From NCBI RefSeq assembly GCF_964355755.1, contig NC_092677.1, positions 25,018,101 to 25,082,100 on the forward strand: 64,000 nt of DNA, given 5' to 3'. Made by a program: the position numbers and the translations under genes. Below the pieces are notes generated by a model, which was not told where the DNA came from, did not search any database, and saw only the letters and a program-made list of their open reading frames with translations. The stretch's first letter is position 1, and the number at the start of each line of letters is the position of its first letter. Positions 11,101-58,961 of this stretch are shown piece by piece. Origin of the DNA: Antedon mediterranea. Taxonomy: Eukaryota; Echinodermata; Crinoidea; Comatulida; Antedonidae.

Positions 11101-12252
11101 TACAACAATTTCTAACTTTAAAAGGTCACTTTGTGTTGTACAGCTGCCACCAAAACGTCTGTCCAAAACGATTGGGGCTGAGAATGCCTAGTACAGCGGG
11201 GTAACCCCAGCAGGTTACTAAAGAAACTTTTTTATAATACGCAATATTTATTATTATTTTTATAGGTGGTTGACTTGAATTATGGAATGGGAAGTGACAA
11301 TCCGATTGACTTTGTCAGATTTTATTCCAAACATGATCCTGAGCAGGCGACCATGGTCCGCAAAAGTGAGGTACTGTAAAATATATTTTTAAAACTTTAA
11401 TGTGGAAATTTACTCTATCAGCGCCAACTGAAAAAACACTCCAGAAATCGTGTTATATTGGACGTATTTTAATTCCTTTTCAGGTGTCCCACATGCTACC
11501 GGAGAAATTTTCTGAGCAACAAATCCGAGTATATTGTAAATTACGAGACGACGACGAAAGCCTACAAAATGCAGTAAGCTGCTTTGTACAGTGGTGTGAT
11601 AGTAAGCAGTACAAACCAAAGGTAGTGTGTTATTAGTAATTACTTTTTATCATAACATACAATATTCACCAACTATCCTAAGTCCTGTTCAAATTGTTCT
11701 TCAGTATTCCGGCCGATTATCGGTACTGACATTTCACAGGAATATTAGGTAATACAACATCACATGTGTTTCACATGTATCTAGTAGTAACCTAACCCTT
11801 AACCTAACCTTACATGATACAGGCACCACATGTGATACAAATGAGATACTGTATAAAGCTGCTCCTGTCTACACTATCAAACTAGTTTGATATAAAAAGT
11901 GTGATGTGCCCAAATATGGTAGTGATATGCCCAAATATGGTAGTGATATGACATCATCATGTCATATATGGGCACATCACATTTTTTTGTCGCATAAAGT
12001 TTGATAGTGTAGACAGAGTTTTACCAAATATTGCTATGATACTTTGGAAATAGATAGTATGTTTAGATACAGCACTGGGAATTGGATGAGTATTCACAAA
12101 TATATTCAGATAAATTTAGTTTTATGATTATTTATGAATGTTTTTTGTTTATTTTTCAGGTTGGAAAAGGAGATCCGGAGATTACGCCATTCAAAAAACC
12201 AAACCAACCAGAAGAAAAACAAGGCCGGAGCAGAACCAGACTTTTTCTGTAG
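5161..12252 (+). CDS. SAMHD1-like: SAMHD1-like dNTP triphosphohydrolase, paralog A
   Basis: dNTPase with SAM and HD domains; family members hydrolyse dNTPs to nucleoside and triphosphate. Fifteen exons: 5161-5293, 5764-5830, 6005-6086, 6277-6437, 7457-7572, 7752-7822, 8118-8255, 8363-8581, 9038-9129, 9523-9582, 10075-10270, 10857-10943, 11266-11370, 11484-11621, 12160-12252. They join in frame to 585 aa (human 626). The basic N terminus PPRKRARS is NLS-like. SAM spans about residues 17-94. The HD domain has H145 (NRFEH), H184-D185 (CHDLGHGPFSH) and D286 in [11 protein letters not shown]. The family allosteric-site residues are kept in [13 protein letters not shown] at T564 is a CDK-type TPxK site like human T592. 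The start has a good context (AAAATGG). A poly(A) signal lies near 12647. All expected active-site residues are present, so it is probably active. Confidence 0.93.
5562..5607. repeat. Short perfect hairpin in intron 1 of gene A
   Basis: CATGGAGTAAAGAATA is followed by a short AT loop and the reverse complement ATTCTTTACTCCATG. The function is unknown. It could be a tiny MITE or a cruciform. Confidence 0.6.
6478..7285. repeat. Minisatellite in intron 4 of gene A (about 35-bp unit)
   Basis: Around twenty copies of a unit reading GTTGTAATACTATGTTCACA then CTGTACATTCTATGG, some replaced by a CTGTACAAGGTTGTACTATT variant. The repeated open frames across it are artefacts. The start overlaps the region just after the exon-4 donor. 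Confidence 0.9.
7955..8052. mobile_element. MITE-1 copy, 5' truncated, in intron 6 of gene A
   Basis: It carries the internal ATATCACTACCATATTTGGG block and the right terminus TTTGATAGTGTAGACAGA, followed by TCTTTAA. The left terminus is missing. Confidence 0.7.
9598..9850. repeat. Short tandem repeat in intron 10 of gene A
   Basis: Degenerate units of GTGTGGACAGAGTATTGTTG repeat about ten times. Confidence 0.8.
9899..10052. mobile_element. MITE-1 copy in intron 10 of gene A
   Basis: It has the GACAAAAAAAGTGTGATGTG and GGTAGTGATATG blocks and a right end reading AAGTTTGATTGAGCTTAA. The termini have diverged from the family. Confidence 0.65.
10297..10690 (+). mobile_element. 5S rRNA-derived SINE (SINE3-type) in intron 11 of gene A
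   Basis: Positions 10301-10400 closely follow 5S rRNA: CACCGGTTCTCGTC, GGTCACCGAAGTTAAGCAAC, then GTTGGGCC and GCTTGGATGG. These blocks include the regions that form the internal Pol III promoter (box A, intermediate element, box C). A non-5S body of about 280 bp follows and ends in CAACAAAAAAAAAATTTAAT. A 5S head plus unrelated body and A-rich tail is the layout of SINE3 retroposons rather than of a true 5S gene. Substitutions and a degraded 5' end argue against a functional 5S RNA. Confidence 0.85.
11857..12022. mobile_element. MITE-1 copy in intron 14 of gene A
   Basis: Both ends are visible: CTGTCTACACTATCAAAC on the left and GTTTGATAGTGTAGACAGAG (read without the A-rich spacer) on the right. 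Several TATGGTAGTGATATG units lie in the middle. Confidence 0.85.
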
Positions 12253-17927: not shown

Positions 17928-20900
17928 ATGTCTCCACCAGCAAAACGGTCAAAGACCGCTTCTGAATCTGATTTGCCGTATAACTACAAGGAATGGACTG
18001 TCGACAACGTCTATACCTATTTGTCAAAGAAAGGATTGGAAGATGAAGCAGAGTGCTTGAAAAGTAAGTATTAAGAAACCTATGTTTTTGACAGTCCTTT
18101 TTCACATTTTTTTTGACATAAAAGAAAGTTGAACAATAATGGACAATAATAATTATTTAATTTATAATTTATAGGTTTGTTTGTTTTATAATATATTTCT
18201 TAATAAATAATTAGTTAAGTATAAAAATCATGTTTGGAACAAACTATAACTACAGTAGGCCTACGGAGAGGCGGGTGGCATTTGATCTTTCCACGCACCG
18301 GCAATTATTGCATTCTCTCCCAAAACTGTTTCTATTATGTGTTGGATATCCTTATGATTTTGGGCAGAAAAATCTCCTTCCTATCACAAACAAAGGAAGA
18401 TTTGCTTAGATTTTTGATACAAAAATAAACGTCACGCACTAACCGAGAAAATGGAAAAACCCACACTAGTAAGTTTTTCTTTGGTATGCGACGTATTGAA
18501 CTGTGACTTTTGGAAATTATAAATCGTTTTTAATGCTAACAAGGCAAGCCAAATTCAATTGAAATTGAAAAAAAAACCACACTAGTAAGTTTTTCTTTGG
18601 TATGCGACGTCTTGAATTGTGATTGGCTAAAAATAGGCCTAGTTACATCTTTGTAATGCAAACAAGAATCCAGGTAAGCAAAAATCACTGGAATCGGAAA
18701 ATCCCACACTAGTAAGTTTTTCTTTGGTATGCGACGTCTTGAATTGTGATTGGCTGAAAATAGTTACATCTTTGTAATACAAACAAGAATCCAGGGAAGC
18801 AAAAATCACTAGAAATCGGAAAAACCCACACTAGTAGGTTTTTCGTCGGCATGCAACGTATCGAATTGTGATTGGCTGAAAATCTATAGTACCGTACGTC
18901 TTTCTAATGCTGGTAAGTTTTTAATATAATAGTATGGTATGCGATGTCTTGAATTATTAGGCCTACTGGCTGCTTGAAAACTATTAAATCCGTTATAAAA
19001 TGCAAACAAGAATCCCGGTATGCCAAAATCATTGGAAATCCGGAAATAAATTTGTTTTCTATACCCAGGGAGTTCCCGGAGTTGTTATTAGACAACTCCC
19101 TGCTATACCTAAGTAGACATGAGCCTATAATAACCGGAAATAACAAGTAAAACAAAGTTCCTTATAGATAAATGATATAACTTGAAATAACTCCAAATTA
19201 ATATATCTGTTGGTAATCTCGTGTCCATATAATATGATAAGAAATGCTATGAGCAAGAGTAAATTATTAATTATCTCATTTATTTAATTATTTAATAGCA
19301 AACAAAATTGATGGAAAAAAGTTACTTGGTTTAACTGAAGAACAATTGAAAGAAATCGGACTCGTGTAAGTTATTTAAAATTGTGGTTTTGTGTTTTATT
19401 TTGAATTATGCCTACTGGTATTTAGTTTACAATGTTCAACCCATTGAAAAAAATCATGAAAATGGAGATCTAAAATCATCGGACTATTATATTTATATTA
19501 TAGGACAACCGGTCAGCGACTCAAATTGCAAGAAATTTGTCATGAGTTAAAAAGTAGAGATATCAGTTACAAAGTAAGAAAAACTAGGCCTACTTTAAAA
19601 AAATCTCAGGCCGATACGATTATAGCCATAAGACCTGTTTTCCGCGCGAATCCCTTGAGTTCTGATTGGATCAGCCATTTTTACGTCACAGAAAGACGGT
19701 GGTGGTTGTTATAGAGTTTGTTGTTTTTTTTTGTTTTAAGCATTCGGCTCCAGTAATGTCTATAATAAGTGTTCAGTGTATTCCGGTGCCAGAAACTATA
19801 GGCCTAATATAACAACTTAATTGGTGTACCATCACAATTTGAACAATAGGGCATTCCTATTTTGTTATCACTTGACTTGACAGTTGGCATATTTATTTTC
19901 ATGTTTTCAGATATTCAATGATCCTATCCATGGCCACATTGAGATGCACCCATTATGTATTAGCATCATAGACACTGTGCAGTTCCAGCGCCTCCGACAA
20001 ATCAAACAGATGGGCGGCTGTTATTACGTCTATCCCGGAGCTTCCCATAACCGATTTGAACACTCTCTTGGGTATGGTATTCAATGTTATATCCGTTGAT
20101 AAATTCCACCAATTCATGCTCTTGAGAAAAATTAGGCGCGTTCGGGTTTAGGGTTCTAGGACACCTACCCCCTAGACAGTTACCCCCCGGATGTTTACCA
20201 CCCGGACAACTACCCCCTTAGGACATCTACCCCCGGACAACTACCCCCCGGACAACTACCCCCTTAGGACAACTACCCCCTTAGGATAACAACCCCCCAA
20301 ACAACTACCCCCCGGACAACCACCCCTTTAGGACAACTACCCCCTTAGGATAACTAACCCCCGGTCAACTACCCCCGGTCAACTACCCCCCGGTCAACTA
20401 ACCCCCGGTCAACTTCCCCCCCCCGCCCCCCAATCCAAAAGTAGACAAATATATAGGACCGGTTTCTGTAAAAATGAAATCATCTGTTTTTAACGGGTGT
20501 TTCGAAACTAGAGACCCGAGACCAGAGACCTGACACGAGACCCAATATGAAAAGGGAGACCTATATTTGGGTCTCCCTTTTCGTATATTAGGGTCTCCCT
20601 TTTCGTATAGTGTGGTCTCTCTTTTCGTATAGTGGGGTCTCCCTTTTCTTATAGTGGGGTCTCCCTTTTCTTATAGTGGGTCTCCTTTTTCGTATATTTG
20701 GGTCTCCCATTTTGTATATTTGGGTCTCCCTTTTCGTATAATTGGGTCTCCCTTTTTGTATATTTAGGTCTCCCTTTTCGTATATTAGGGTCTCCCTTTT
20801 CGTCGTATAGTGGGGTCTCCCTTTTCGTATAGTGGGGTCTCCCTTTTCGTACGTGGGTCTCCCTTTTCGTATTGGGTCTCGGGTCTCTGGTCTCTGGTCT

Positions 20901-23900
20901 CGGGTCTCTAGTTTGAAACACCCGTTTTTAACCGATTATTCTGTTTAACAGCACGCTAGACCCTAGATGTGCTAGATTTAAAGTACCGTATTTATTGAAA
21001 AAACGGCCTTGGCTGTTTATTGTTTAGATGGTTTTTAGGTGGACATTTATTGGAAGAAAGTTGTTTATTCGATGGGAGGGGGTATAATCTAATGGAAATA
21101 GACCCCCGATTATTCCATATGATGTTTCATGGGAGTGACATGGTCACCGTTTAGTTGAGGGGAATTTATTTAAAAAAGATCGCCGTTTATTCGGTGAGTG
21201 AACTTTGAGGTCAAATATCAAAAGTGATATTATTCTTCAAGTGTACAAAAATACATATATGACAAATTTGAGACAAAAATTAATTCTTTTAAGACCAGTG
21301 GTTATCGAAGCATTGTCCTGACGCAAAAATTATTATTATTATTAGCGAACCCAGTCTTTACAGTAAATACAGGGAGTACTATATAATACGTTCGACTATC
21401 CTATGATCATGTGTGACAATCTTCAGTTTATACCAGGCTATATTTATGTTCAATCTTTTACTTTTGTTTACAATAATGAATAGTAATTCGTCAAAGTAAC
21501 GAATTAAAATATAGTTATTAATTCCTATTATACACTGTTGCAGAGTCAGGTTGTTGAATGGTCTGGGTGGTAGTTGTCCGTCCGGGGGGTAGTTGTTCTA
21601 AAGGGATAGTTTTCTGGGTGGTAGTTGTCCAGGGGTTAGTTGTCCTACGGAGGTAGTTGTCCTAAAAGATTATTTGCCCTCGGAGTATTGTCCAGGTAGG
21701 AGGTAGTTGTCCTACGGGGGAGTATTGTGTCAGAGGTAGTTATCCGCGGGGTAATTACCCGGGGGGGGGGTAATTCTCCGGGGGTAATTGTCAGGGGTAA
21801 TTGTTCCTAGGGGGTAATTGTCCCTAGGGGGTAATTGTCCGGGGGGTAGTTGTCCAGGGGTTAGTTGTCCTACGGAGGTAGTTGTCCTAAAAGATTATTT
21901 GCCCTCGGAGTATTGTCCAGGAAGTAGTTGTCCTACGGGGAGTATTGTGTCAGAGGTAGTTGTCCGCGGGGTAATTACCCGGGGGGGGGGTAATTGTCCG
22001 GGGGTAATTGTTACTAGGGGTAATTGTCCGGGGGTAGTTGTCCAGGGGGTAGTTGTCCTAAGGGGGTTGTTGTCCTAAGGGGGTAGTTGTCCGGGGGGTA
22101 TTTGTCCGGGGGGTAGTTGTCCTAAAGGGGTAGTTGTCCTAAGGAGGTAGTGGTCCAGGTGGTGGTTGTCCGGAGGGTAGTTTTCCGGGGGTAAATGTCC
22201 AGGGGGTGAATATCCGGATACGCGGGTTTAGTGATTTACCCGGGTAAGTTAGATACTTATCCACCAAAGTTGCGATAATTAGTCCAGCTATGCCGAATGC
22301 CATATCTCAAATCTTCAACAAAATAATAATGATTAATAAAAAGTTGTATTTGTTATTAAGCATATTTAGGGCATGTATAGCCTATAGTATACCATGTATA
22401 GTAAGACAATTTATTAACAGATAACATAATCCTGGTTTTTGGTTTACAGAGTGTCATATCTTGCGGGAAAACAAGCGAGAATTCTGAAAGATAGGCAACC
22501 AGAATTGAACATTACCGCTGAAGATATTCTGTGTGTAGAGATAGCAGGGCTCTGTCATGATTTAGGTATTATGTTTGACGATGCATCCTATAGTATAGCC
22601 TCAGAAACGGCTGATAATAATAAAATGGCAACAATATTTTTCTCTCCCTACCCCACCCCTTCTCTCTCCCCCACTTTCTCCTCCTCTCCCCCCGTTTGCT
22701 ATGATTACGAAGCCCGAATATTACCCATAGGCCTACAATATTTTTTATAGGCCATGGTCCATTTTCACACATGTTTGATGCGATGTTTATACCTCGTGTT
22801 CTTCCAAATTCCGAGTGGAAAGTAAGTTAAAGCATTTTACAATTGTTGTTATTCAATTCAATTCAATTTATTTCCACAATAATATAACATACAAACAGTG
22901 TACTAAATGCAATGAAGTAATCATGTGGGGGGAGAGTCATATAAGTCAGAAAGACTTTAAGTTTGACCCAACCCATGATATAACATTATTAAATAAGAAT
23001 ACGAAAAAGAAAAAAAATATATATAATAAAAAACAAAGCTACAATTTCTATTTAAATCATATTATCCGATCTTAACGGGTCTTATAAAATATATACATTA
23101 TTGCACTACTTCTATAATGAAATCGAAATTAGTTAATTATTTTGGAATAACAATCTGTATAAAAAATTATAATTGATCTTCCATCCATCTTATATATTCT
23201 GTCAGTTATGTTGATTACGGTATGAAATGGCGTATGACGACTACACAGCGCAATCTCGGCAATACGTTTTTTATGCCCATTCTCCCAATATATCATTTTT
23301 ATTCAACAGCATGAACAAGCGTCCATAAAGATGTTTGATCATCTCGTGAAAGAAAACAATTTGGTAGAAAAGTTTGAATTACATAACCTGAATGAGAAAG
23401 ATAGGATTTTCATCAAAGAGCAGATCTATATGGACAAGGAGAAGGTGAGTAGACTTTGAAAACAGCAACATAACAGAGACAAATTTGTGACTGCAATTAA
23501 TTTTTCAAATATTCATACGGTAGATCAAGAAGAAAGAATATGAAGGGCGACCGAAGAAAACATTTCTATACGAGATTGTTGCGAACAAAGTGAATGGAAT
23601 CGACGTGGATAAAAGCGACTATTTCGAACGTGATTGTCTCATGCTTGGTATCAAAAACAGTTTTGATTACAGTCGTTTCATGAAGTTTACTAAAGTCATA
23701 AAAGTGAATGACCAGTATCAGATATGTACACGAGACAAGGTAGATTATTACACCCTTCCAAACAATCTCTACACGACCAGTATAATAACCGTTTGCAACC
23801 GTAGGCCCTACTTGCAACTAACATTCCTTGATTCGTTTCTCAGCATCATACATTGTCTATCCATACTTTATTCTTTCCCGCAAATAATGTCACTTAATAA

Positions 23901-26900
23901 TAAGATGGACACAGTCGAACGAAGAAAGTCGTTTGACGTTATGCCTATTTATAGGCCTACTTTTTCCTATTATTAGAAACTTACATTGAAATTTCATGTA
24001 AAGAATTGGTCATTCATCCTTCTTGTAAAGTGATAAGACAACGTGGTGCAACGTAAAATTAACATTTTGTTTTTATTATTTGTAGGAAGTTGGAAATTTA
24101 TATGATATGTTTCATACAAGAAATAACCTTCATAGACGTGCCTGTCAACATAAAGTTACAAAAGTCATTGAAGTGATGTAAGGCCGGCTATATGCTTTTA
24201 TAGTCCTATTGTATACATTTCTTTTCATTGTAGTTTGAATTGTTCCATTACAGGCATTAAAAAGGTCTACTGTAACCAAGGAAATATTTCCTCCATGCTG
24301 TAACAGTGCTTGAAGTCGGAAAACAATGATCATTACTGAAAACAATATTTTCATTCCGAGTTTAGAATTTCATACTCAAATTCTATGATTTTATTTTTCC
24401 AGTAAGTTTTCCCAATATTGTAAATAATGTTTGAATAAAAATTAATGAATAGACATGGTTAACATACCAGGCATGAAAGGGCGTATAAGGTGAGTGTCCC
24501 CCGGCCTCTGAAAGCTTTTTATAATGCCACGTACGTCCAGTTGTCACTAGTATAATATTTAACTGAATACCGTAGGCTATTGCAAGTAAAGCTTGGTTCC
24601 CACTAGAACTTAACGCAAGGACGTAAACGCAACGCAAGCGTTTTAACCAATGACAAGCGAAGTTATAGACAGTTACCAATCACAAGGGAATAAGCCATCG
24701 CTTGTGATTGGTCAATTTACTTGCGTTGCGTTACGTCCTTGTGTTGCGTCGCTAGTGGGAACCACGCTTAAGTTAAATACAAGCCAAGGTATGTTAGATA
24801 CACATCGGATGACTGAGAAATGCCATGTTTTGTTTGTGGTATACGTAGGATTGTTGATGCGTTGGTGAAGGCAAACAAATACCTATTGTTTAAAGGAACA
24901 GATGAAAAGGACTTTACAATGTCGGAAGCTATTGAGGATATGACAGCCTATACAAAAATGACAGATAATGTCATGTACGACATATTGAATACATCAGACG
25001 AGAACCTGTTTCCTGCTCGCAAAATCATCCGGGACATCCTAACGAGGAACCTGTATAAATGTGTTGGTCAAACTAACCCAAAAGAAAACAAATTGCTTCA
25101 GGTAAGAACACACAAGAAACATCTTCAAGAAACGTTTCAGTGTCCACGTAGCTATAAAGCTTTGTTCCCACTGGGACGTAACGCTAGGATGTAAACGCAA
25201 CGCAAGCGTGTTGCCCAATGACAAGCGTCAGTTTGAATAATCCATCGCCTGTCATTGGTCAACTAACTTACGTTACGTTACGTCCTTGTGTTGCGTCTCT
25301 GTAGTGAGAACCAAGGTTAAAGGGCTAATCCAGTTTTCTGGATTGTAGCAACCACCACGGATCGTTTTTTTGAGAAAAAGTTTTGAATGATTATTAAATA
25401 ATGCATTTGATTTTACTTTTATAAAGGAATCTATTCCGGAATATAAAAAAGAGCTTTTAGAATGTAACACGAATAATCTGAAGCCAGAAAACTTGGAGTT
25501 TCATGTAAGTTCACATTTGGTTCAATCTTATTGTCGACAATTGGTTTAGCAGCTATACTATAATAGCTTTGATGATATTAAGAATAATTTGATTGGTCAA
25601 TATTCTAAGATTAGGTATGTTTTATTTCATTAGCTGATTGATTATAATTATGGGATGGACAGTGAGGATCCTATCGAATCCGTTGGATTTTATACGAAAC
25701 ACAATCCTGATAAAGCATTTAAGATTCGCAAACATGAGGTGTGTAAAACTATACTTTATTTTTTTCTTAAAGAACAAAAATGAACCTCTGAGACCTTACC
25801 TAGCGTTGGTGACGTAGGCATACACTAAAAAAATACGGGGGAAAAAATAATAAATTGAGGTTGGAATGAATGTATGTGTCTTATATAATAGTTTATGGTG
25901 AAAACGAGGCTAGATATTAACACACCGTTTGAGATTTGAATTCTCATAAATAATCATCTTCCCTCAAGAATATATAAATTTTAAACCTTGACTTAAGCTC
26001 TGTCTACACTGTCAAACTAGTTTGACAAAAAAAAGTGTTATGTTCACACATGGTAGTGATATGCCTAAATATGGTGGTGATATGACATCATCATGTCCAT
26101 GGGCACATCACATTTTTTTGTCACATAAAGTTTGATAGTGTGGACAGAGCTTTAGACGGCCTTTGTATGTTTTTTAAACAAACTACCAGTTAATAAACAA
26201 AACAAGTTTGAATCTCATCTTTGTTGAACGACGGTTGTAAACCTACATAATATACATGTTTCGGGAAGCATTTCCCTAGTGTGAAACTATATTCACATAC
26301 GTTCATCTTTTGTACGCTCTTCATAACAGGTATCAGGTATGTTACCAGAGAAAGTTTCAGAACAGCAAATACGGTTGTACTGTAAACTATATGACGAAAA
26401 AAGCATTCAGGATGCAGCTACTTGCTTTAAACGATGGTGTGAAGGAAGAGGATGGAAATACATGGTAGGGCCTAAGGGCTACAGTTTAATTTCACGGTTT
26501 TTGTGTATATGCGTTTAGGCAAATGGTTTCTGTTGAAGAGGTGATGTGTTTTCTTTAGGCTATTCATAACAATACTGGGAGTTGTAACGAGGCTAGTAGG
26601 CATACTTGTGTGTGAAGAAGAGTTCCTTATAACCAGAGATCCGCCCCTGTGTGCGTTTGGTATGTGTGTATTGTAGACCTTTATAGGCATGTTCATTTTG
26701 TCTTATTATCAACATTGTGTTAGGCGTGCATGTGATATATCATCATTAGGCCTATATCTTACAACATTGATCATATTTCTTCCTCATGGAATTATCCTTT
26801 TGTATATTTACTGTAGGAAGGAAATGTGGAACCGGACCTTACTCCGTACAAGACAAATCAAATTGCAGATCGTCCAGAGCAGGTATCTACGGTCAAAAAG

Positions 26901-29672: not shown

Positions 29673-32600
29673 CTAATCCATTTGACTATAGTAGAGCAGT
29701 TAGTGACATGAGCTGTGCATTTTATTACCAAAGCATGAAACTTGGCACAAAGTTTCTTTAATATATATAGATTCAAAATATCAGGGGGTGCCAAGTGTCC
29801 AACGTCCGGTATGGCGGCCATCTTGATTTCAAAATGGCCACCATAAAAACAAAAAATGTTCATATCTTGGCAACTATACACATTAGAGACTTAATTCTGG
29901 TCTCAAATTGTTCACAAACTATATATTGCTATTTGCTCTAATGAAAATTTTCGTCAAAAAATGACCGGAAATGACGTTTCTTTCAGTTTGACCTTTGACC
30001 TCGTATTTGTATATCTCTGTAACTACTGGTCATTTTCAATCGATTTTGGTGTCATTTTGTTCAGAATAAATACATTTATATTTGTAGTAATGAAACCTTT
30101 TCACATAAAATGACCGGAAATACAATTTATGACCTTTGACATTTATTTATTGATTTTTAATTATGTGAATATACTGTATGTGGGTTTGTGTTGGTCTTAA
30201 ATGCATCTAATTTTGAACTTTGACCTGATAGGCGTAATTATATTAAATGATTAATGGACTTAAATTGTATATGTTACATAAAATTGGTAAACAATGTGCT
30301 GGGTGGTACCATTAGTTCAAGGATGTTGGCACCTTCTGATTCGCTAAAAGTTTTAATAGTTTGACAGAGGAAATAAGATACATGTTATGGAATACCGTAA
30401 AACCTCGAAAAGGTGATAGTATTCATGAGCTTCTTTTCGAGATAGACTGTATTTGAATGTCAAATGAATAGTATGATGATCGTGTTTATATCAATATATT
30501 ATTAATGACCTTACAAAGAACCCTTTATATTTCAACAATCAAGCCTCAGTTATTCTACAATTTATTGTTTTCCAAGTGGTAGGCCTATTTTGATTGCATC
30601 TTCTTTTTGTATGCTTCCTCGGTTAATATGGTCCTACCCCTCCTTCTTTGTCTGTAGATAGTCTTATACCCCCTTCTTTGTCTGTGGATGGTCTTATACC
30701 CCCCTTATTTGTCTGTGGATGGTCCTACACCCCCTTTTTTGACTGTGGATGGTCTTATACCCACTTCTTTGTCTGTGGATGGTCTTATACCCACTTCTTT
30801 GTCTGTGGATGGTCTTACATCCCCTTCTTTGTCTGTGAACGGTCTTACACCCCTTTATTTGTGTGTGGATGGTCTTATACACCCCTTTTTTTGTCTGTAG
30901 ATGGTCTTACACCCCTTCTTTGTCTGTGGATGGTCTTATACCCCCTTCTTTGTCTGTGGATGGTCTTATACCCCCTTTCTTTGTCTGTTGATGGTATTAC
31001 ACCCTTTTTTTTGTGTGTGGATGGTCTTACACCCCTTTCTTTGTGTGTGGATGGTCTTACACCCTTTCTTTGTCTATGGATGGTCTTACACCCCTTCTTT
31101 CTCTGTGGATGGTCTTATACCCCCTTCTTTGTCTGTGGATGGTCTTATACCCCTTATTTGTCTGTGGATGGTCTTATACCCCCTTCTTTGTCTGTGGATG
31201 GTCTTATACCAACTTCTTTGTCTGTGGATGGTCTTACATCCCCTTCTTTGTCTGTGGACGGTCTTACACCCCTTCTTTGTCTGTGGATGGTCCTACACCC
31301 CCTTCTTTGTCTGTGGATGGTCTTATATCCCCTTCTTTGTCTGTAAGTGGTCCTATACCACTTTCTTTGTCAGTGGATGGTCTTACACCCTCTTCTTTGT
31401 CTGTGGATAGTCCTACACCCCCTTCTTTGTCTGTGGATGGTCCTACACCCTTCTTTGTCTGTGGATGGTCTTACACCCCCTTCTTTGTCTGTGGATGGTC
31501 TTACACCCCCTTCTTTGTCTGTGGATGGTCCTACACCCCCTTCTTTGTCTGTAGATGGCCTTACACCCCTTTCTTTGTCTGTGGATGGTCTTATACCCCC
31601 CTCTTTGTGTGTGGATGGTCGTACACCCCCTTCTTTGTCTGTGGATGGTCTTACACCCCCTTCTTTGTCTGTGGATGGTCTTATACCCCCTTCTTTGTCT
31701 GTGGATGGTCTTATACCCCCTTTTTTGTCTGTGGATGGTCTTATACCCCCTTCTTTGTCTGTGGATGGTCTTACACCCCCTTCTTTGTCTGGACCCACTA
31801 CTATGATTGATTAAATCAGACATTGTTTCTTGTATGATTAGGAGACCAAGACCTTCAAAGTGAAAGTCCACAGGTGGATGCCTAAAAAGGTCTTGTACAG
31901 AACAGTATATTGTAGGTCCATGTCACTAATTTGAGGATTACTTGAATAATTATATTGAGATGTCTTTTACGAATTGATTTGGTTCGGATTTTGCTAAAAA
32001 ATCAATGACTAGAGAAAATCGAGGAAAAGGATTCAGATGGTTTACAGCAAAGGCCCATTACCATAAAAATGGAGTACATTTTTTTAGATGCAACGAAAAT
32101 GAACAAGAATTATCTGAGTTTCGGACTAATGAAAGTAGGTCTACTGCACAAATGCAGGATTAGTTTGTAGTAAGTACTTTGAAAGACGGTGTTCTCTTAA
32201 CTCGTGAAAATGAGAACTTTCCGAACTTGTCTCATATGCAACATCAAAGAGGCCAACGAAAAAATATTTCCAAATGGCATCTAACAATTCAATTCAACTT
32301 TTATTTCAGACAATTGTCCATATGGTATAATACATTACAAAAAAAAAAGAAAGGATGAAGGAGGAGAGAGGACCAAAACTTTTATCTAACGATTGACACA
32401 TCACAGTTTAGCAAACAAGTCGGCATAGATGAGCTCAGTGATTGATGTTTCTCAGTGATCTGTCATACTTTACGCCTATCCTATCACATCAAAAGTAAAA
32501 AATTCAGAATAATTCCTGGTCATTTTTTCATTAAGTGTCATTTATTTCGGTAAAAAAAATTAAGTGCATTATATCAATGTAAACCACATACAATATGTTC

Positions 32601-42473: not shown

Positions 42474-45400
42474 ATGCCGAACCGTAAGCGAAAAACCAGA
42501 GGCTCTGGTGGTGGCCGTAAGTATGCATACATTCTGTACGCATAAGACTGACGTTTTTTTGTATTTTAAATTCAAATTGTGTCACCGAAAACAATGGTCG
42601 CATGATTTTAGATTTTAAAATATTACTGAATTGTATTGGAATTTGGTCCTGCCAAAAAGAAATTTGTCCTCTCCACTAACTTTACTAAAGAGCTATTATC
42701 ATTTGTTAATTGTTTACCTCTTTATATAGAACATAGTATGTGAGCGTGCACTGTGATCAATCACAATTACTTCTTACAAATAACTGGTGGTATAATGTAT
42801 AATATAAATATTTTATGAATATGTTGTGATAATCGTACAGGGGTTGTTTATGTCTTCATTTTTATCATATTATTTTAGGAGGAAGAAAAAAACCGAAGGT
42901 TTTGAATGTAGGTATATTGGTTGATGTAATACTTTGCTTCCACTAGACGCAACGAAAGGACGTAACTTAGCGATTTGACCAACCACAAACGATGAATTAT
43001 TCAAACTGTGGCTTGTCATTGGTTAACTCCTTTGCGTTGCGTCTACGTCATTGCATTGCGTTTATGGGAACTAAGTTTAAACTAGGGCCTATTACTTTTC
43101 CAATCCTACATGCACATTTGTGTCTTTTTGTGTTACGAAGTTTGTGAAGGTAACGTTGTTGGAAGACGGACACAAAAGTTATGTAATCGACTCAAACTGC
43201 ATCGATCACAAACCTTATACTAGTACAAAACATATGCCTATAGTAAGACCAAGAACCCCCAATAGTTACACACAATTGTGACGTCCCGTCTAAATAGGCC
43301 TATAATCTAAAAACTATCAACAATACTTACGAATAGCCTGTGTATCAGCCGGAATTTTTCACCAAAACCTCTCTACATGTGCTCAGCAAATATAAGTTAC
43401 CGTAATTGATAATTTGTACCGTACTGTATTAAAACACAGTCTTGTATATGCAGACTAGGCATTTTACCAAGAAATTAAATTTGAAAGCTGTTACCAACTA
43501 AGCTTTTTTTCCTGTAAAGTGAAATTGTCCAGCAGTTGCTGTTATTTCTTTCAGAAAATATTCAATGATCCTATTCATGGAACTATTGAGCTACATCCAC
43601 TGTGTGTTAAAATCATTGACACTGTGCAGTTCCAGCGCCTACGCAACATCAAACAGCTGGGTGGTTGTTATTTCGTCTTTCCCGGAGCTTCTCACAACCG
43701 ATTTGAACATTCTATTGGGTATGGGTTGAGTCGTTGAAGAATTAGATTGTAATTTCAAGATTAAATTTGAAATTACAGAAATAACATAAATCATTATGGT
43801 TTTTAATAAAATGATATTCAAGTTAGGTTGTTGAGCTTCCTCTATATTTATTATTGCTTACAATAACACAATGAAGGTTTTCTTAGGCATATATCAATAA
43901 AAAAATACAACAAAAGACAAAAAAAAAGAAAAAAAAAAAGAACAGAACTGATTTAAATGTTTTCAAAGAGTGAATGATTTTAATTTGAAATTAAAAAAAA
44001 AAAAAAAACGTTTATTTTTGTTTTCATTTATTTGTAAAAAAACAGGATAACAATTAAAGTGGGGAAATGTACGATAGATAGGATACTTATTTGATATGTC
44101 AATTCTACCAGTTTTGGTTGTGCGTGATTTGCCATTTTAAATACATAGAAACTAAAATGGCTTTAGCTTAATAACGTTACCCATTAAAACCTTTCTTCTA
44201 CAACATATCAATTTAAGCACTCAATTTCCTCATTTGAACCATCTGCCGACGAGTACACTTTTTCTGCAATACAGTATACACTAAGTAATTTAAGTTTCTC
44301 TTGATTCAGAGTATCGCATTTAGCTGGAAATCTGGTAAGATCTTTAAATGAAAAACAACCAGATCTGGGTATTACAAAGAAAGACATTTTATGTGTAGAG
44401 ATCGCCGGACTTTGTCATGATTTAGGTATGTATTCCTAACACATGGCTTTACAAGGAATATTATTGTTTATATGTGTTAATTATAATAGAATAACTTACT
44501 TTTATTTTGTTTATTTATAGGCCATGGTCCATTTTCACACCTGTTTGATAGAAAGTTCATACCTGCTATAGAAGGACAGAAAGTGTGGGAAGTATGAGAA
44601 ATTGAAAATATTTAATTATCATATTCATAATTATAAAAAATCATACTGTATTTAATAATATGTTCATTATTATAAAACACATAGATAGTGCATTATTATT
44701 AAAGTATTATTTCAAAGATAAATTTCAATCAATTTCTTGTTTCTGTTTTAAATCTATACTAATATTATTACTTTGTAACTTTGTAGCATGAAGATGCGTC
44801 TTTGCAGATGTTTGATCACCTCATTAAACAGAACCCTGAAGTAGAAAATGAATTTAAGAGGCATTTGAATGATCAAGACAAAACTTTCATTAAAGAGTTG
44901 TTTTATGGCAAACTGAAAGTGAGTACTGTCTGAATTCTTAATCATTTTTTAATTGCTAATTGTCTATGGAAATAAAAGTAGTACAATTAAAATAACAAAA
45001 ATCAAACTAAATAGGCCTACATTTGGTCATTATGCTATTATTTTATTATTTAAGAAATTCAAATTGGAAGAGAAGGAAATTCGAAAATATATTCTTGACC
45101 CATTGAAGAAAGTGAGTAAATTTATTAGTCACACAATTGTTATTATTCTTATACAGTGGACACCCGGGTCCCGAAAATAGAAACTTAGACACTGTCAGAA
45201 AAGCTTGGTTTCCAATAGAATAATTCTGCCGCAACAACGTTAGGAAATACTCTTCTATCAATGTAGCACAAGTTTAATAATCACGTTTGCGTCGTTTGCA
45301 AAGTAGAAAACGGTGACACTAAATTCGTTATGTTCTCACAGCACTTAGCGTCGATACGTCGCGTCTGCGTTCTTGCGTCGCATTCTAGTATAAACCAAGC

Positions 45401-48400
45401 TCAATTAGTTGTCCAGAAGTACCCCTTATGAAAATATTATGATGCACTGATTTAAACAGGAATAAAACAAACTGGTTTTTACGAGAGATGTCCGTTGAAC
45501 TGTTTTGTTTACTTTTCCTCTAATGTTTAAATATGTATGTAATTATGTACTTTTAGTATTGTAGTTGAATTTCATATTTGTTGTATTTTTTTATGATCAT
45601 TCGTTTAAAATTCAAACAAACAAACAAGTGGTGTTACTACAAAAAGAGAAATAAGTTTGATCACATTTTATATTTTCTAATTGTTAAGAAATACGACTTG
45701 GGGGTGAATTCTGACACACTAATGAAAGTAAGTAATGTCAAACTGTAAAATTAAATAATATAATAAAATACATTTGTTTTTAATATTTTATGGTTATTAT
45801 ATCTAATATTTACAATTGATTGAATTGATACTACATATCAAAATATTGGGCTATATTAAAAATGTCTTTTAGTTGCAAAAAATAAAACTATATTATAATT
45901 ATCTTTTTTAAGAATGTGAGAGAGGAAACAAATAAAGTGGTAAGTATTGACCCACTAAAGTGAGTACTGTAAAATCTTGTGAAATTAGATACGGTAGAAT
46001 TTACTGGTTAGGCTAAGTAGTATATTGATACTGTCAATTAATTACATCTTGAATATATTTGAATGTGTATTGTGGTACTGATAGCAATAAATCATATAAG
46101 TTGTTTAAAACAGGTTCAGTATTGTAAATTTTATTCTATTATTCAATTTTTAAAGAAATATGAAATGGAAGAGAGGTACATTATAAATGTGATTCTTGAC
46201 GAAATGAAAGTGAGTACTGTTAAATTAAATAATGCATAGGCTTATAAATTAATTTGTAAATTATTGATTTGAATATTTTAATGTCTATTGTGGTGGATAG
46301 CACTAAATATCGAATAACATTTATATAATCATGGTGCTTTACATAAATTATAACATTGCTTGAAATTAAGTGTCTTCACTTGTTAATGTTATAGGCAGAT
46401 TATTCCATATTTTGAGTCCGTTTTAAGATTACTTTTAAAATTTATAATTCACGTGGTTTGTTGCTATTTCAAATTGTTGATATTCTTTTAAAGAAATCTG
46501 AATTGAAAATAACACCGGAGAAAATTAAGGAATTGATTATTGAGCCACTGAAGGAAGTGAGTACAGTAACGTGTGTTATTGTTTTTTTTATATAATGAAT
46601 GTAATACTGTATTACACAAATAACCAAACTAAACCATTCCTAAACTACCGGTACATGTTTTCTTTACAGTACAGTAGGCCTACAGTTTTATAAAATTAAC
46701 TATTATTGTTAGTGACACTAAAATAAATAATTATGAATTAAAAGACGTTTGTTATATAATTTCAATACAAAATCAACGACGTTGACGTAGAAAACAAATT
46801 ATTAGGCTAATTAAATAATTATCCCAGGATTAGACCCGGACAACAATAACGTTTTTTACCCTTTCACACCCTCTACCACCAAATCATGTATCCAACTAGT
46901 TCTACGTCGTCTTTCTAAATTGTACATCTTACCAATCAGGTGTATTTTGGATATAATATTTTTAAAATGATTAATTTAAAAAAAAATCAATCAAAATATT
47001 ATCAGTATCTTGATTCAGTGGATATTATTTTTCAGAAATTTCCATACACATATAAAGGCAGAAGTAAAGAGAAACACTTTCTGTACGAGATTGTTGCAAA
47101 TAAACGCAACGGAATTGATGTTGATAAATGGGACTACTTTGCACGAGATGGTCATATGCTTGGATTCTCAAACTGTTTTGATCACAAGCGCTTAATGAAA
47201 CTTGCAAGCGTTTTGACAGTGAAAGACGGTGAAAGTAAGCAGATATGCTTCCGAGACAAGGTAAAGTATATAAAGAATGGAGTGGATGTAAGTGATGAAT
47301 GTTGAAATTAGTGTAAGGATATCTTGAGTAAGGGAATATGGATTTGTATGAAGAATTTCAGCTACGGTACATCGAGGAAATTAGGGGTTATATGCATGGT
47401 GATTTGTAAGTAAGAATACCCTTTTTGGGTTATGCGATGTACTATTTCCTTTTAATTGTTTTGTTTATTCAGTCTAAAATCAGTAGTAGAAATCTTTAAA
47501 AAAAAAAGTAAAATTCTCATTTTTAGGAAGTGGGAAATTTATATGATATGTTTTACACGCGACATCTTCTTCATAGAAGAGCCTGTCAGCACAAAGTAAA
47601 CTTGGTCATTGAAAGAATGTAAGTTTGGTATAGGCTAAATAGTCTATTCCTTATACTCTAAATAATTATACTCATCATCAACTGACAACTGATCAAACAA
47701 TTACTATATGGTAATTTTTTTAATCTCAAACATAGAAAAATAAGAAATTAACCTGTGAAATTTTAACTTTAAAGTATATGAACAAAAAACATGAAAGTGT
47801 TCCAAACTAAAACAAAACAAGAGTGTAAAACTGGAAAATGAGAAAATCATTTAAATGAGAATCCTCCCATTTTTATTGAGTGGAAAAAAAAAATAATAAT
47901 CCTTTACTTCACTGCAATCTCAGTAATCTTAGTGAGTGGACATATTTTACTATTGAGAGTGGTTTAAGCCTGTTTTTCACTAGGCAAATGTATCCCTCAA
48001 TATTTACTATCTCACCCAGTTTCAGAACACATTTTAATAGTTTTATGTTATATTTAGGATTGTTGAAGCATTAGTTCTAGCCAATGAACATCTAAAATTG
48101 GAATATAAAGATGGGTAAGTAAAGCCAGTTTCTACTATGCAAATATATTTTCATGTTGAAAATGAAACAAAAGATGGAAATATAAATTTACATGTGCAAA
48201 AATCAACGATCAATTTTGAGTGATTAGAATTGCCTGAATAAAAGCAAAACAGGCCTAAAGTGCCGGTCATAGGAATATTGTTGTGAGAAGGTATTACATT
48301 TAGTATAGATTTTAATACTAAATCATTATTAGGAAAAACATTATACACTCTAATAATTTCAGAGAGACAACAGTAAAAAAGAAAATGTCGGAAGCTATTG

Positions 48401-51100
48401 ATGACATGAAAGCTTATGAGCAGTTAACAGACAATGTACTGTATGATATATTGAAATCATTAGATACAAACATGGAAGAGGCTCGCGATATGGTAAAAAA
48501 GGTGTTTGAGCGGAAGCTGTATAAATGTATTGGAACTTATGCTGTTCCAAAAAGCAATGAAGAAGTAGTAAAGGTAAAATCTACATATTATATGCAAACT
48601 AGGCCATGTTTTACAAATTACTGTAGACTCTTGTTCTGCTTCATAATAATATGTATATGTAACCAGGGAGATGTAAAATATTATTTTACATCTCCCTAAT
48701 GTAACTCTCCATACTCGCTAAACGATTATGAGTTGACACGATCTTCACTGGTATCTACCATGGATTGTTTGTAAATATTTTGTTAGTAGGCCTACATGAA
48801 TGTGTGTTTAGTAGTATGAGTAACCTATAGGCTATGTAAGGTGATTGTGTTTTGTTTTTTAATTATCTTGACACATTTCTCAAATGTTGTTTCTCTACCT
48901 TGAGAAAAGTCTTCAATCCTTGTTTGCTAATTCCTTTAAAAGTCTAGCTAGAGTTCAATTTCGTTTGTGCTTTCAGTCATGGTGGTCTATTTAATGATAG
49001 AGAAAATACACAATTTAAATGGTCACGTAATTATAAATTGTTACACAAAAAACAAATTGCTGTACAGCAACAACAAATTAAAGCAAGTTGAAAATGAAAT
49101 AAAGATCTTTACATTAAAATGCTTGTAATAAAAAAACATTGTTATGGCATTTTTTTTTCTTTTCTCAAATATAATAAGATAGAATTGACTGATAAACATT
49201 ATTTAAAAAAAAATCCTTTAGTTTTTTTTTATCTACAGTACGATTGATCAATAATAATTCAAAAATGTATTTTTGTTTCTGTAAAGAAATCTGATGACGA
49301 GATTAAGGAAGAGATCGTTGCACGTGCACAGCCCGGCGGCCAACTCGAGAAATTGAATTTAATTGTTGAAGTAAGTATAGTACAGTGTGGTGGTCCTATT
49401 ACCGGTGGTGGTGGTGGTGAAATAAACAATTATGAAACACAAAACCATTACTGACTGATCTGAAAACAATAGCTTTAGAGATACACAATTGTTTTATGCA
49501 ACTTTGTATTTTATACAATATCATCTATAAAATATGTAGTTAAATGTTTTAGATGTACTTCTAATTTTCCTAATAGTACAGGAAAAAGGGTATTACTAAA
49601 AGTAATGATTGAAACCACCATCTCAACAGCCAACATCGTCGTTTAAGCAAAATAATACAATCCATTTACACCCACATGCATTTAACCTTTATAGGCTTAA
49701 GGCAGGCATACACAGTCATACATTTGTCTGTCATACACATCAAACAATGTATGATCAGACAAAGTCTGATCATGTATGCCTAAACCAGACTTAGTCTGAT
49801 TGCCATTTTATGTGTCTGTCAGTGTCTGATGAGAGTAGAATAAAGACAGATATATAATTACAATAATTAATTATTGGATTGTATTCACTAACAAATCAAA
49901 ATCGAATTAATGTAGGACTGAAGACTAATATTTATGCATAGGCCTATATAATAATAAATGATCTACGGTAGTACATTATATTAGTTTTTTGTTTCTGTTG
50001 CACCTACAGTTTTTATTTTTAGATTTATGTAGGCGACATGGTGCTCAAGTTTATTGTGTCTTGCCACAACTTGAAGTTGTAATGTTTATAAATTAGGCCT
50101 ATCTAGTCGGTTCTTTTATTTTTAAGATTTTAAACACTGGTTTTATAGTGTAAAGTCTACTGATGTCAGTGATGGTGTTGAATATTCTGTCGGAGCTCTA
50201 ATTCATAAACTCAGAGATAATACATTTACATTTAAAAAAAAAAATGTTATTTTTTAGCGTGTTAAATATGATTATGGGCAGAAAAGAGAAAATCCTATTG
50301 AATCTGTTTACTTTTACTCAAAAGAAGACAATACAAAAGCATTTACAATCCCTAAACATAAGGTACTGTACTGTAAAATTATTTTGTTAAATAATACCGT
50401 AATCTTTGAAGATTAGCATTTTCTAATCAGTACATTACATTTTAATTAAATGTAACATTTCTATGTCGCCTAACAGTAGTTCATTCCTATCATGTCTAGG
50501 ATTTTAACAAGAAATTAGATTTGTTCAGAACACAAAATTGGGTTATTTGATTTTTTAACAGGTGTCCAGCATGCTACTGGATCACTTTCATGAAATGGAA
50601 ATACGTGTTTACTGCAAAGACGAAAAGAAAAAAGACATTGCAAAGAAAGGTTTTGAAAAATGCCTTAAAAAATGGGTCAGTATGTGTTTTTTAACTGTTT
50701 TTTTCTCCTCACTTTTACTACTTTGGTTATCAGATAAAAAATTACCAAAAGTATGTATTTAGTTGACTTAATCATGAGTGAACAGGATAAAAATACAAGG
50801 AGATCATAACAATATATATTTTAATATTCCCAATTATGAATTTATATAATGATAATTATTTCTTTCCGTACAATTTAAAAACAAAAACAGTATAATGAGA
50901 ATTTAAATATACCCACCTTTAGAATTATATTAGTAATTCTGCTTGACCACATTATCAGCTACCTTATTTTTTTTATATGCTTAACTTACAGTAAGCTTGT
51001 TAAACTATTGACTTAAATATCATCATGTTTCTGAGTAAATAAATTGTGGTTTTTTTTCTAGCCTCCACATAAGCCATGTCAAACGTGCAAATCTACTTAG
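42474..51100 (+). CDS. SAMHD1-like: SAMHD1-like HD-domain paralog C, SAM-less, with mini-exon insert
   Basis: Nineteen exons: 42474-42516, 42879-42907, 43555-43718, 44310-44425, 44521-44591, 44787-44918, five mini-exons (45055-45111, 45689-45727, 45913-45939, 46156-46209, 46494-46556), 47036-47260, 47527-47618, 48058-48114, 48363-48573, 49287-49370, 50258-50362, 50562-50675, 51062-51100. They join in frame to 573 aa. Two short exons encode a basic, glycine-rich leader ([20 protein letters not shown]), probably a nuclear signal, in place of the SAM domain. HD residues are intact: H76, H115-D116 (CHDLGHGPFSH), D295 in [11 protein letters not shown]. The mini-exons add 80 lysine/glutamate-rich residues (186-265). 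The C terminus ends [12 protein letters not shown] with no TPxK site. The exon at 50562 could extend to 50750 and add a hydrophobic stretch. Confidence 0.88.
42932..43082. mobile_element. MITE-2 copy in intron 2 of gene C
   Basis: CTTTGCTTCCACTAGACGCA on the left pairs with TGCGTTTATGGGAACTAAGT on the right; the inner arms have GACGTAAC and TTTGCGTTGCGTCTACGTC. Confidence 0.7.
45055..46556 (+). other. Tandem array of five phase-0 mini-exons in gene C
   Basis: Exons of 57, 39, 27, 54 and 63 nt encode [59 protein letters not shown] and, for the last, [20 protein letters not shown] plus E. They resemble one another and the end of the preceding exon ([17 protein letters not shown]), which corresponds to [18 protein letters not shown] in paralog A. 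Acceptors share an unusual AAG ending (TTTAAG or TTAAAG), and donors read GTGAGTA or GTAAGTA followed by similar intronic words (TACTGT, AAATTAAAT). All lengths are multiples of three, so any subset could be skipped without breaking the frame. Confidence 0.8.
45201..45404. mobile_element. MITE-2 copy between mini-exons 1 and 2 of gene C
   Basis: The ends AAGCTTGGTTTCCAATAG and TTCTAGTATAAACCAAGCT are inverted; the interior (TCGCGTCTGCGTTCTTGCG) is diverged. Confidence 0.65.
48665..48697. repeat. Perfect short hairpin in gene C intron
   Basis: GGGAGATGTAAAATA, a 2-3 nt loop, then TTTTACATCTCCC. Confidence 0.7.
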
Positions 51101-54845: not shown

Positions 54846-57800
54846 ATGGAAGAACCAGCAAAGCAAGTGGTGTTGACCGAATGTGAAGTAACCTCTGACA
54901 GCATTGAAACAGCTGATGGTGCCGAAGTCCTTACATTAGACAGCGCTATTGCACAGTTGGTAGCATCTACTAGTGAAGAAGTTCAACAAGCTACTGTAGT
55001 GGTTGATGCAGCCCAAAGCAACCCCGATGATGCAGAATTTGATCTCGAAGAAGATGGAAATGAGTCAGAAAGAGAAATACTCTCGACCGAGATTTTGTTT
55101 AGATGCAAACTCTGCAACTTCCATGGTACCTCTAAGATGGAAATTGCTGACCACTTCATATCAGATCATACGGCCATGGAAATGGTTGAATCTTCATCCA
55201 AACGTGACACTACAGTAAAGAATGTAGATTGTAATGAAGAGGATGGCGATGGTGGTAAACAAACGCGTAAAAGTGGTCGTAGCAATGCCGGAATCAACAG
55301 AGCTTCTGACAGATCGCCCGAGTCGCTGCCGAAAAAATGTAATCGTAAAAGAAAGAAAACAAGCGATGAAGAATCCGCAGATGTTTCAGAAACAATGTAT
55401 ATACAGGGATTCAAAACATTGGATGAATGGGAAGCCAACTGGAGAAAGAAAAATATCATTACAGAGGTCCACTGCCCTGTTGATTGGTGCACTGGGATGA
55501 TGCCGGAAGAAGAAGTGGAAATGCATGCCAAATGCCACATTAAAAAACATAAAGGGTTTCAATGTTCTGAATGTTCTTTTAATCATAAATATTGGAGAGA
55601 TATGAGGCGCCATCTGTACAGTAAACACTTCAAAGAGCAGCGTTTGTGGCGGTGTGACCAAGCGAATTGCGATTTAGCTTTCTCTACTCTTGGTGATCTT
55701 CGTAAGCACATGAAACACAAACATGTGTTTTCAAACCCAGATGAAATTGTTGTTGTTGGAGAATTGGATCAAGACGATAACATAGAAGTAGAGGCCATGC
55801 CAGTTGTTAAGAAGTCACGTCGTAACTATTATCCACGGTTCCAAGCCTGCTTGTTGTGTGGAATTAAGTGTAAAGCCAAGGAGGAGACTACATTCCATGA
55901 GGGGAAACATTACGACGACACCAATAAAGACATTTTGGTATGTACCGAATGTGACGTTGTGTTCCACTGTGAACAAATAGACGAACTGAAAGAACATGTC
56001 AAAATTGAACACAAAAGGATGACGCATTCACATCGTTGCACTGTATGTTTCTTCTCAACAGATCGTCTGTTTGATCTAAAAAAACACATGTGGACGCACT
56101 CTGGCCAAAAGAACTTTGTCTGCGATAAATGCGGAGCAAGAGCATCAACTGCTTACAACCTGCGTGTACATCATAGTCGCATACATGCTAATGAGGACGA
56201 CAAGAAAATATCTTGCAGTCTTTGTGATTTTCGTTGCGCCCATCCGGCCGTATTGAAGGACCATCTACGCCAAGTTCATCAACTTCTAGCTAGTGGTAAA
56301 CTGTATCAACGAATCACGCCAATGAAAACATATAAATGCTCTGTGTGCGATTACGTCGGCAAGAAAGAGAGCAGTTTGCGGTACCATATGAGGATTCATT
56401 CTGAGAATCGGCAGTTCAAATGCATGCTGTGTGCTTATGCTAGTAAAACAAAGAACAACCTTATCCTACACATGAGAACACACAATGGTATGAGTCCACT
56501 TAAGTGCCCTCAATGCGACTTTAGAGGTACAGTATAATATTAATATTGGTTTTTATCTTTAAAATATTTTTTGAAATTTTTAAGAGTTTTTATCATTTTT
56601 ATAATTTTTTTATATATACAAATACACATTTACCGTATTGTTCATTTTTTACAAACAAAAATTAGAAAAACATGTTACATTACAGTATTTACTCGTATTA
56701 TTCTGCAGTTACTGTAACTACATATTGGTTAATCTTTATTTCTTGCAGTAAAATATTTGACATGATCCCTTTTATGTAAGCATTTTTTTATTATTTTGTT
56801 TTGTTTCTAATTAACAGGTGCCACAAACAAGATTATTCAAGAACACATGATGAGCAAACACACGCGTGAAAGACCTTACAAGTGTACGATATGCGGATGG
56901 GACACTTGCTACAGCGGTAATATGTGGAAACACATGGACATGCACCGTAAGAAAATGGGTCTGAAGTTACAAGGTGAACAACTGGTTCTAGTCAGTGGAG
57001 GGAAAGATAACGCAGGCCTTCTCACCAAAGATGGCTGCAGCAAGATAATTGTCGCAAGGTATGAATCTCCGAAACTGAAGTTTAGGAAACGAACAAACGC
57101 TGCAGCTACGACGTTTTTGATCCAGCAACTTGATGGAACGTTTATCCAGACGTCTGCTGGTGATACTCTAACTAGTGGCGAAGCAGTGCAGGTGACAACT
57201 GTAGACGCTGCGGAAACATCACAAGATGAAATGACTGGTCCTTATAACAAAGTTGCCAATTTGTCCAAGTCTGGTGAAGACGATGGTGATAATACATCCA
57301 GTTTTCCCACAGAATCTGAGGAGCAAACGATGGTTTTAGTCTCTGGTGTCGACTCATCTGGTACACCAACTGAGATGACCTATGTTCAGGGTAGCTCACA
57401 AGCCGTCACTGCTGCTGACAGTGGTTCTGAAGGTAATGACGCAGGAAGCATTCGGTATGTCTCACAAATTCTTTCGCAAATGGCTGCACAGATTACACAA
57501 TCAACTAACAATCCACAAGAAATTGGTTCATCACCATATCTACCAGATGGCCAGGTTCCGACATCGATAACTATCCAGTCGGCAGACCAGCTTGAATCTC
57601 AACAGCTTGGAGAAGAAGGTACTACAATTCTTGTCCAAAGTGATAACCCGGAGGTCAATGAGGCTGGCATGGTGACAATGCAAATACAAGGCGATGGTCA
57701 ACAATCTTATGTGATACCGGTCAAATTCCAAGAAGGAACTGGCAATTCAGACCAGCAAGAAGTGACCTATGCTACTGTACGTATTAACCAAGACGGGAGA

Positions 57801-58961
57801 CCTGAAGAAGGTACTGTTGTCCATGAAGGGATTGTCACCGGTGACAACCAGACCACCTACATGACCGTTTTGGATCAAAGCTCAGAACATCAGCAGCAAG
57901 GAACCGGTGATGTGAGTCTCCATGACGCCGATGGTCAAGAGATTCAAACAACGTATATAGTTGAGATGGATGAAGCTGAAGCTGCCAAGCTTCATGCAGG
58001 AGGAATGGCAACAGTTGCCAGTGGAGAGGAGAGCCAAACCGCATACATATCTGTTGAGATTGATGGAGCTACAATTTCTGCCGAACACATGAGTGAAAAA
58101 GAAAAGGAAATTACTGAGCATCTGAAAGGAGAACTTGCTGAACAATTGACGGAGGAAATGTCTAAGCAGTTGAACAAGCCAATAACAGAGCAGCAATTGA
58201 ATGAGCCAATAACAGAGCAGCAATTGAATGAGCCAATAACACAGCAGCAATTGAATGAGCCAATAACAGAGCAGCAATTGAATGAGCCAATAACAGAGCA
58301 GCAATTGAATGAGCCAATAACAGAGCAGCAATTGAATGAGCCAATAACAGAGCAGCAATTGAATGAGCCAATAACAGAGCAGCAATTGAATGAGCCAATA
58401 ACAGAGCAGCAAATGAATGAGCCAATAACAGAGCAGCAATTGAATGAGCCAATAACAGAGCAGCAAATGAATGAGCCAATAACAGAGCAGCAATTGAATG
58501 AGCCAATAACAGAGCAGCAAATGAATGAGCCAATAACAGAGCAGCAATTGAATGAGCCAATAACAGAGCAGCAAATGAATGAGCCAATAACAGAGCAGCA
58601 ATTGAATGAGCCAATAACAGAGCAGCAATTGAATGAGCCAATAACAGAGCAGCAAATGAATGAGCCAATAACAGAGCAGCAATTGAATGAGCCAATAACA
58701 GAGCAGCAATTGAATGAGCCAATAACAGAGCAGCAATTGAATGAGCCAATAACAGAGCAGCAAATGAATGAGCCAATAACAGAGCAGCAATTGAATGAGC
58801 CAATTACTGAGCAAATGAATGAGCCGGTAAGTGAGCAGTTAAATGAGCCAGTAAGTGAGCAGTTGAATGAGCCAGTAAGTGAGCAATTGAATGAGCCAGT
58901 AAGTGAGCAATTAAATGAACCATTGACAGACGATGCAGGAACAACTGAAGTGGAACTATAA
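54846..58961 (+). CDS. Multi-C2H2 zinc-finger protein with nonapeptide-repeat tail (ZnF 1)
   Basis: Probable nuclear DNA-binding regulator; its target is unknown. Two coding exons, 54846-56526 and 56818-58961, join in phase 1 (CDFRG|ATNK) to 1274 aa. The acidic N terminus (about 1-80) precedes a first finger (RCKLCNFHG, about residue 86). After a basic linker (KKCNRKRKKTS) about twelve further C2H2 fingers span residues 205-605, some atypical (CPVDWC, CDQANC). The second exon encodes one finger (CTICGWD) and a long acidic, Q/T/S-rich region, then about 23 copies of NEPITEQQ(L/M) and several shorter NEPVSEQL units (about 1010-1265). Fingers linked by TRERPYKC and SGQKNFVC resemble canonical linkers. 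Gene 61079 onward is a diverged paralog. The layout recalls large vertebrate multi-finger proteins such as ZNF335, but I cannot assign orthology. Confidence 0.88.
58171..58925 (+). repeat. 27-bp coding minisatellite in ZnF 1
   Basis: Unit CAATTGAATGAGCCAATAAC then AGAGCAG, nearly identical over about 23 copies, then 24-bp variants encoding NEPVSEQL. Only L/M alternation (TTG/ATG) and a few substitutions vary, so the array is young or homogenised. Antisense open frames across it are artefacts of a unit length divisible by three. Confidence 0.95.

Follow-up and report, generated by a model that had tools for sequence, protein, structure and literature searches.

Tandemly amplified candidate mini-exons in an HD-domain intron of a SAMHD1 homologue from Antedon mediterranea

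Three SAMHD1 homologues and an intron with five small units

The window analysed here is a 64-kb stretch of the Antedon mediterranea genome in which three SAMHD1 homologues lie head-to-tail within one 45-kb stretch. All three are encoded on the forward (+) strand, as are the exons, introns and units of the array described below: gene A is represented by coding matches at 6274-11594, gene B occupies 19271-26437, and gene C extends over 42474-51100. When the whole assembly (354 Mb in 18 contigs) was searched with the exon carrying the equivalent of human residue D311, exactly three genomic matches were found, all inside the window. The exons of gene C were placed exon by exon with tblastn, while exons 1, 2 and the last were read from the sequence, resulting in an intact HD-domain dNTPase homologue that runs from an inferred ATG at 42474 to a TAG stop at 51098-51100. 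Its predicted product matches the Pfam HD family with an E-value of 1.5e-11 and a solved SAMHD1 chain from the PDB with 5e-136 (phmmer), with homology spanning the HD and C-terminal regions. NRFEHS, GLCHDLGHGPFSH, HEDAS, and GIDVDKWDY are all present and supply the HD metal-binding residues (human H167, H206, D207, and D311) as well as the catalytic H233. Judged from its sequence, gene C is a SAMHD1 dNTPase homologue with putative dNTPase activity and a putative nucleotide-driven tetramer. Compared with gene A and leaving aside the small units described below, it shows a pS of 0.77 and a pN of 0.32 with an excess of third-position changes, which argues that gene C itself is constrained. Gene B is substituted beside the D311 motif and reads DKSDYFERD, not DKWDYFARD. 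A pattern scan for SAM domains found one plausible SAM-like exon, at 19271 upstream of gene B, and none near gene C, whose 5' end was read directly from the letters.

Several other features share the window. Downstream of gene C, a C2H2 zinc-finger open reading frame of more than 560 codons covers 54846-56537. Introns of gene B contain a short, ACGCAAC-rich dispersed element in two related copies (24587-24771 and 25155-25320), and a similar-looking stretch lies at 42940-43080. Large minisatellite arrays are located in or beside genes A and B at 6664-7289, 18449-18883, 20159-20872, and 21620-22207. At 30628-31791, a 30-nt repeat, ATGGTCTTACACCCCCTTCTTTGTCTGTGG, is present in ca. 39 copies, and a second array at 58165-58930 consists of ca. 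29 units of 27 nt that match at 94% and whose minus strand reads as an AHLLAHSI-like, possibly coding peptide.

The feature of interest is an intron of gene C at 44919-47035 (2,117 nt). It is preceded by exon H (44787-44918, 132 nt), which encodes HEDAS and thereby the region of human H233, ends in the donor GTGAGTACTGT, and is the last exon before the array. It is followed by exon D (47036-47260), which begins with KFPYTYKGR behind a CAG acceptor and contains GIDVDKWDY with the D311 equivalent. Between them lie five units: m1 (45055-45111, 57 nt, donor GTGAGTAAATT), m2 (45689-45727, 39 nt, donor GTAAGTAATGT), m3 (45913-45939, 27 nt, encoding NVREETNKV, with a new donor GTAAGTATTG at 45940), m4 (46156-46209, 54 nt, donor GTGAGTACTGT), and m5 (46494-46556, 63 nt, donor GTGAGTACAGT). 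Each is preceded by an AAG acceptor, followed by a GTRAGT donor, and open in phase 0, so that all ten unit splice sites are canonical. A preliminary description of this DNA had placed five in-frame units of 27-63 nt with AAG acceptors between the exon of the HD motif and that of D311, and this was confirmed. Some of its other statements about the units needed qualification. The donor said to be shared, GTGAGTACTGT, matches exactly at just three places, namely exon H, m4, and a site at 45960-45970 behind m3 that is unused, while m1, m2, and m5 carry variants. The proposed peptide motif K-x-x-L-E...I-L-D-P-L-K is found in full in just two units, m1 and m5; m4 has part of it (ILDEMK), and m2 and m3 lack it.

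Relative to m1, the lengths of the units differ by -3 (m4), +6 (m5), and -18 nt (m2), all multiples of three. The unused site behind m3 is homologous to the donors of exon H and m4, and its use would yield 47 nt and a frameshift; m3 is in frame because the different upstream donor GTAAGTATTG would be used instead. Phase 0 and divisibility by three, which had been ascribed to every unit, hence apply to all of them as modelled but to m3 solely by way of this other donor. As each modelled unit preserves the frame, any pattern of skipping would be tolerated. When we searched the long introns of the array for decayed hidden units, nothing turned up apart from the m1 edge already known, and these introns contained short pieces of dispersed repeats instead. 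The pieces, at 45336-45405 and 46724-46773 in the array's two longest introns, have copies on many contigs.

At the protein level, inclusion of all units would insert up to 80 residues into the HD domain (residues 186-266), a stretch that appears in phmmer alignments as a segment without counterpart between two strong SAMHD1 matches. Human SAMHD1 exon 8 starts at residue 285 (PMC3503569), making the array intron the counterpart of human intron 7 beside the loop of residues 278-283, and these residues are disordered in open and closed structures of the human protein (PMC7045340). Together with the phmmer gap, this would place the insertion in a tolerant loop. We found no evidence for the earlier suggestion that the corresponding human stretch lies near the allosteric site or the tetramer surface; its counterpart is this disordered loop next to the exon 7/8 junction. 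By the gene model, splicing of exon H directly to exon D gives a SAMHD1 loop of normal length.

Common descent of the units and their flanks

The units might in principle be nothing but chance AG...GT pseudo-exons in AT-rich DNA that resemble each other through composition alone. Words like GTACTGTA are indeed frequent in the window, and profiles built from exon sequence without flanks are weak, with m2 lost and m4 recovered at an E-value of 2.7. However, when four units and their short flanks were used to build a leave-one-out profile, the fifth was consistently the next-best place in the 64 kb, at E-values from 1.8e-9 to 4e-3. Most pairwise alignments of units with their flanks outscored 500 dinucleotide shuffles. 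Since the exon signal is weaker without flanks, much of the evidence for kinship sits in the copied splice edges. There, the donor-covering 14-mer AAAGTGAGTACTGT occurs at exon H, m4, and the fossil site of m3, so that three of its 14 exact copies in 354 Mb fall within 1.3 kb of gene C. With up to two mismatches, five matches were observed against 0.84 expected, a number reached by none of 100 shuffles. This donor word is in part a functional consensus, and the independent evidence is therefore a deep-intron repeat spanning 46055-46308, in which positions 46055-46092 of the m3-m4 intron match positions 46273-46308 of the m4-m5 intron better than in any of 300 shuffles. Comparable open pyrimidine-rich pseudo-exons numbered two in 123 kb of background versus five in the 2.1 kb of the array intron. 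Shuffles, flank-inclusive recovery, 14-mer counts, and the deep-intron repeat all reject compositional likeness, to which we assign a negligible probability. On sequence comparison, the units and their flanks are related by common descent through tandem intragenic amplification, which also took in the splice sites and the edges of the introns. Two points of the preliminary description, similarity beyond composition and the copying of intron edges with the exon, are borne out by these results.

Paralogs A and B lack the units at the matching place. The exon H counterparts at 8118-8255 (A) and 23310-23444 (B) are followed by short introns of 107 nt (8256-8362) and 79 nt (23445-23523; 85 nt with an AAG acceptor), which indicates that the array is specific to gene C. 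The DNA of m4 matched itself alone in a search of the genome. An exon of gene C at 49287 that has AAATCTGA in common with m5 was considered as a stray unit and rejected, since it is the ordinary exon G and both other paralogs have a counterpart of it.

The likely source of the units is the preceding exon. In the leave-one-out searches with short flanks, the end of exon H ranked next after the left-out unit each time, and with longer flanks m2 even fell just behind it. The donor side of exon H is identical to that of m4 at 14 of 14 nucleotides. Inside the exon the kinship that had been proposed is weak: exon-only profiles found the interior of exon H at an E-value of 19 or worse, and protein comparisons gave p-values of 0.007-0.9, the lowest when m5 was compared with the human sequence, and were otherwise mostly insignificant. 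The units are thus probably descended from the 3' end of exon H, a conclusion drawn mainly from the donor side. Two more specific origins were tried and are not claimed, namely an acceptor copied from the in-exon TTTAAG of exon H and a unit start derived from an A-like EYELDD: the alignment was suggestive, but residues 137-141 of A scored just 73 versus 71 for unrelated windows. Values of dS among the units (0.28-0.58, from small samples) are lower than between genes C and A, where dS is saturated, which suggests that the amplification occurred later than the gene duplication.

Optional exons or drifting duplicates

The units score as coding sequence: their codon score is +30.7 bits in frame 0, compared to -34.5 and -1.8 when read in the two alternative frames. 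Of 20,000 matched intron samples, not one scored as high, and just 0.4% of matched intron samples were free of stops. Two of the ca. 32 exons used to train this codon score were out of frame (ca. 4% of codons), which adds noise and is not expected to inflate the result. A coding ancestor would by itself account for the high score, and the units give no sign of purifying selection because dN about equals dS: comparison of m1, m4, and m5 with each other gave dN/dS values near 0.9, 0.7, and 2.2 over 18-19 codons, and an excess of third-position changes was not found among the units. An amphipathic-helix repeat was considered and dropped, as hydrophobic moments were not significant (fractions 0.08-0.75).

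These observations fit genuine tandem duplicates that are functionally neutral and drifting, being skipped or noisily spliced so that the junction of exons H and D gives the sole meaningful product. The loss of frame at the ancestral donor of m3 agrees with such drift, as do the pairing of very short exons with AAG acceptors against the CAG of exon D and the frequency of tandem duplication in other introns and elsewhere in the window (a 35-nt unit repeated 17 times within a gene A intron, several arrays in gene B, 39 copies of 30 nt, and 29 copies of 27 nt). However, m3 shows not just decay of a splice site but also its replacement by an in-frame donor, all ten splice sites are canonical, and length changes come in threes. 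All five units are open, and the probability of this under neutral drift from a coding ancestor is 0.02-0.10, suggestive at most. On balance, we regard purely neutral duplicates as a rather unlikely explanation, though the main rival to the one that we favor.

The reading that we favor with moderate confidence is that the units are optional cassette exons which lengthen a disordered loop of SAMHD1 copy C. They arose by repeated local tandem duplication in the intron of this copy, probably after the gene copies had separated. What was duplicated included the end of an exon (probably the 3' part of exon H) together with its donor and the edges of the intron. In five descendants, a frame open in phase 0 still lies between an AAG acceptor and a GTRAGT donor. 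These could act as short, weakly defined cassettes whose AAG acceptors and good donors compete with the CAG of exon D, so that variable inclusion would be expected. Skipping of all units would give a protein of normal length, and each included unit would extend the loop by 9-21 residues while leaving the catalytic core unbroken.

Tandem homologous exons in other genes are often mutually exclusive (PMC9013439, PMC9741552), and a Dscam-type arrangement with exactly one unit per transcript could be envisaged here as well. However, the shared motif is mostly lost in m2 and m3, and nothing forces exclusivity because the unit lengths are all divisible by three; we consider this very unlikely. Somewhat less improbable, but still unlikely, is that gene C is specialised for diversity, with the five mini-exons combined into 32 possible forms that differ in the length and sequence of the 278-283 loop and thereby alter dNTPase regulation or interactions with viral antagonists.

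If optional inclusion is correct and the units are spliced in, the length of an HD-domain loop in a SAMHD1 would be set by exon choice. The locus would then offer a natural test of how much change the 278-283 loop tolerates and of whether this loop tunes activity. The array also appears to have caught exon birth midway, with intact, 18-nt-trimmed, and frameshifted-then-donor-rescued units in one intron and two paralogs without them.

Comparison with known systems

Tandem exon duplication is already known, affecting ca. 10% of animal genes as cited in PMC9013439, and the array of gene C is a new instance of it. As in other tandem exon duplications and mutually exclusive exons, adjacent homologous exons with their splice sites have been copied within one intron. 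However, the units of gene C resemble the end of the preceding exon alone, vary in length, are very short, and do not require exclusivity. For SAMHD1, our searches of the open-access literature brought up no report of duplicated exons.

Vertebrate SAMHD1, a dNTP triphosphohydrolase and HIV-1 restriction factor, shares with gene C the HD residues and the place of the intron between the FIKEQ...PLE and YKGR...DVDKWDY exons, but in gene C the 278-283 loop would be longer by up to 80 residues. Human splice variants from the same junction delete exons 8-9 and are catalytically dead, rather than adding exons (PMC3503569).

Enlargement of a loop through duplication has a parallel in another antiviral protein, TRIM5alpha, where a natural 20-residue duplication changes viral specificity (PMC11100679). 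That duplication in the v1 loop affects the coding part of a single exon and has been functionally tested, whereas gene C carries exon copies known from genomic DNA. In the PEVK region of titin, an array of short phase-symmetric exons tunes the length of a protein segment. The array of gene C is likewise a row of short, frame-neutral exons of one kind, but it comprises just five units, lies inside an enzyme domain, and is so far described at the level of DNA.
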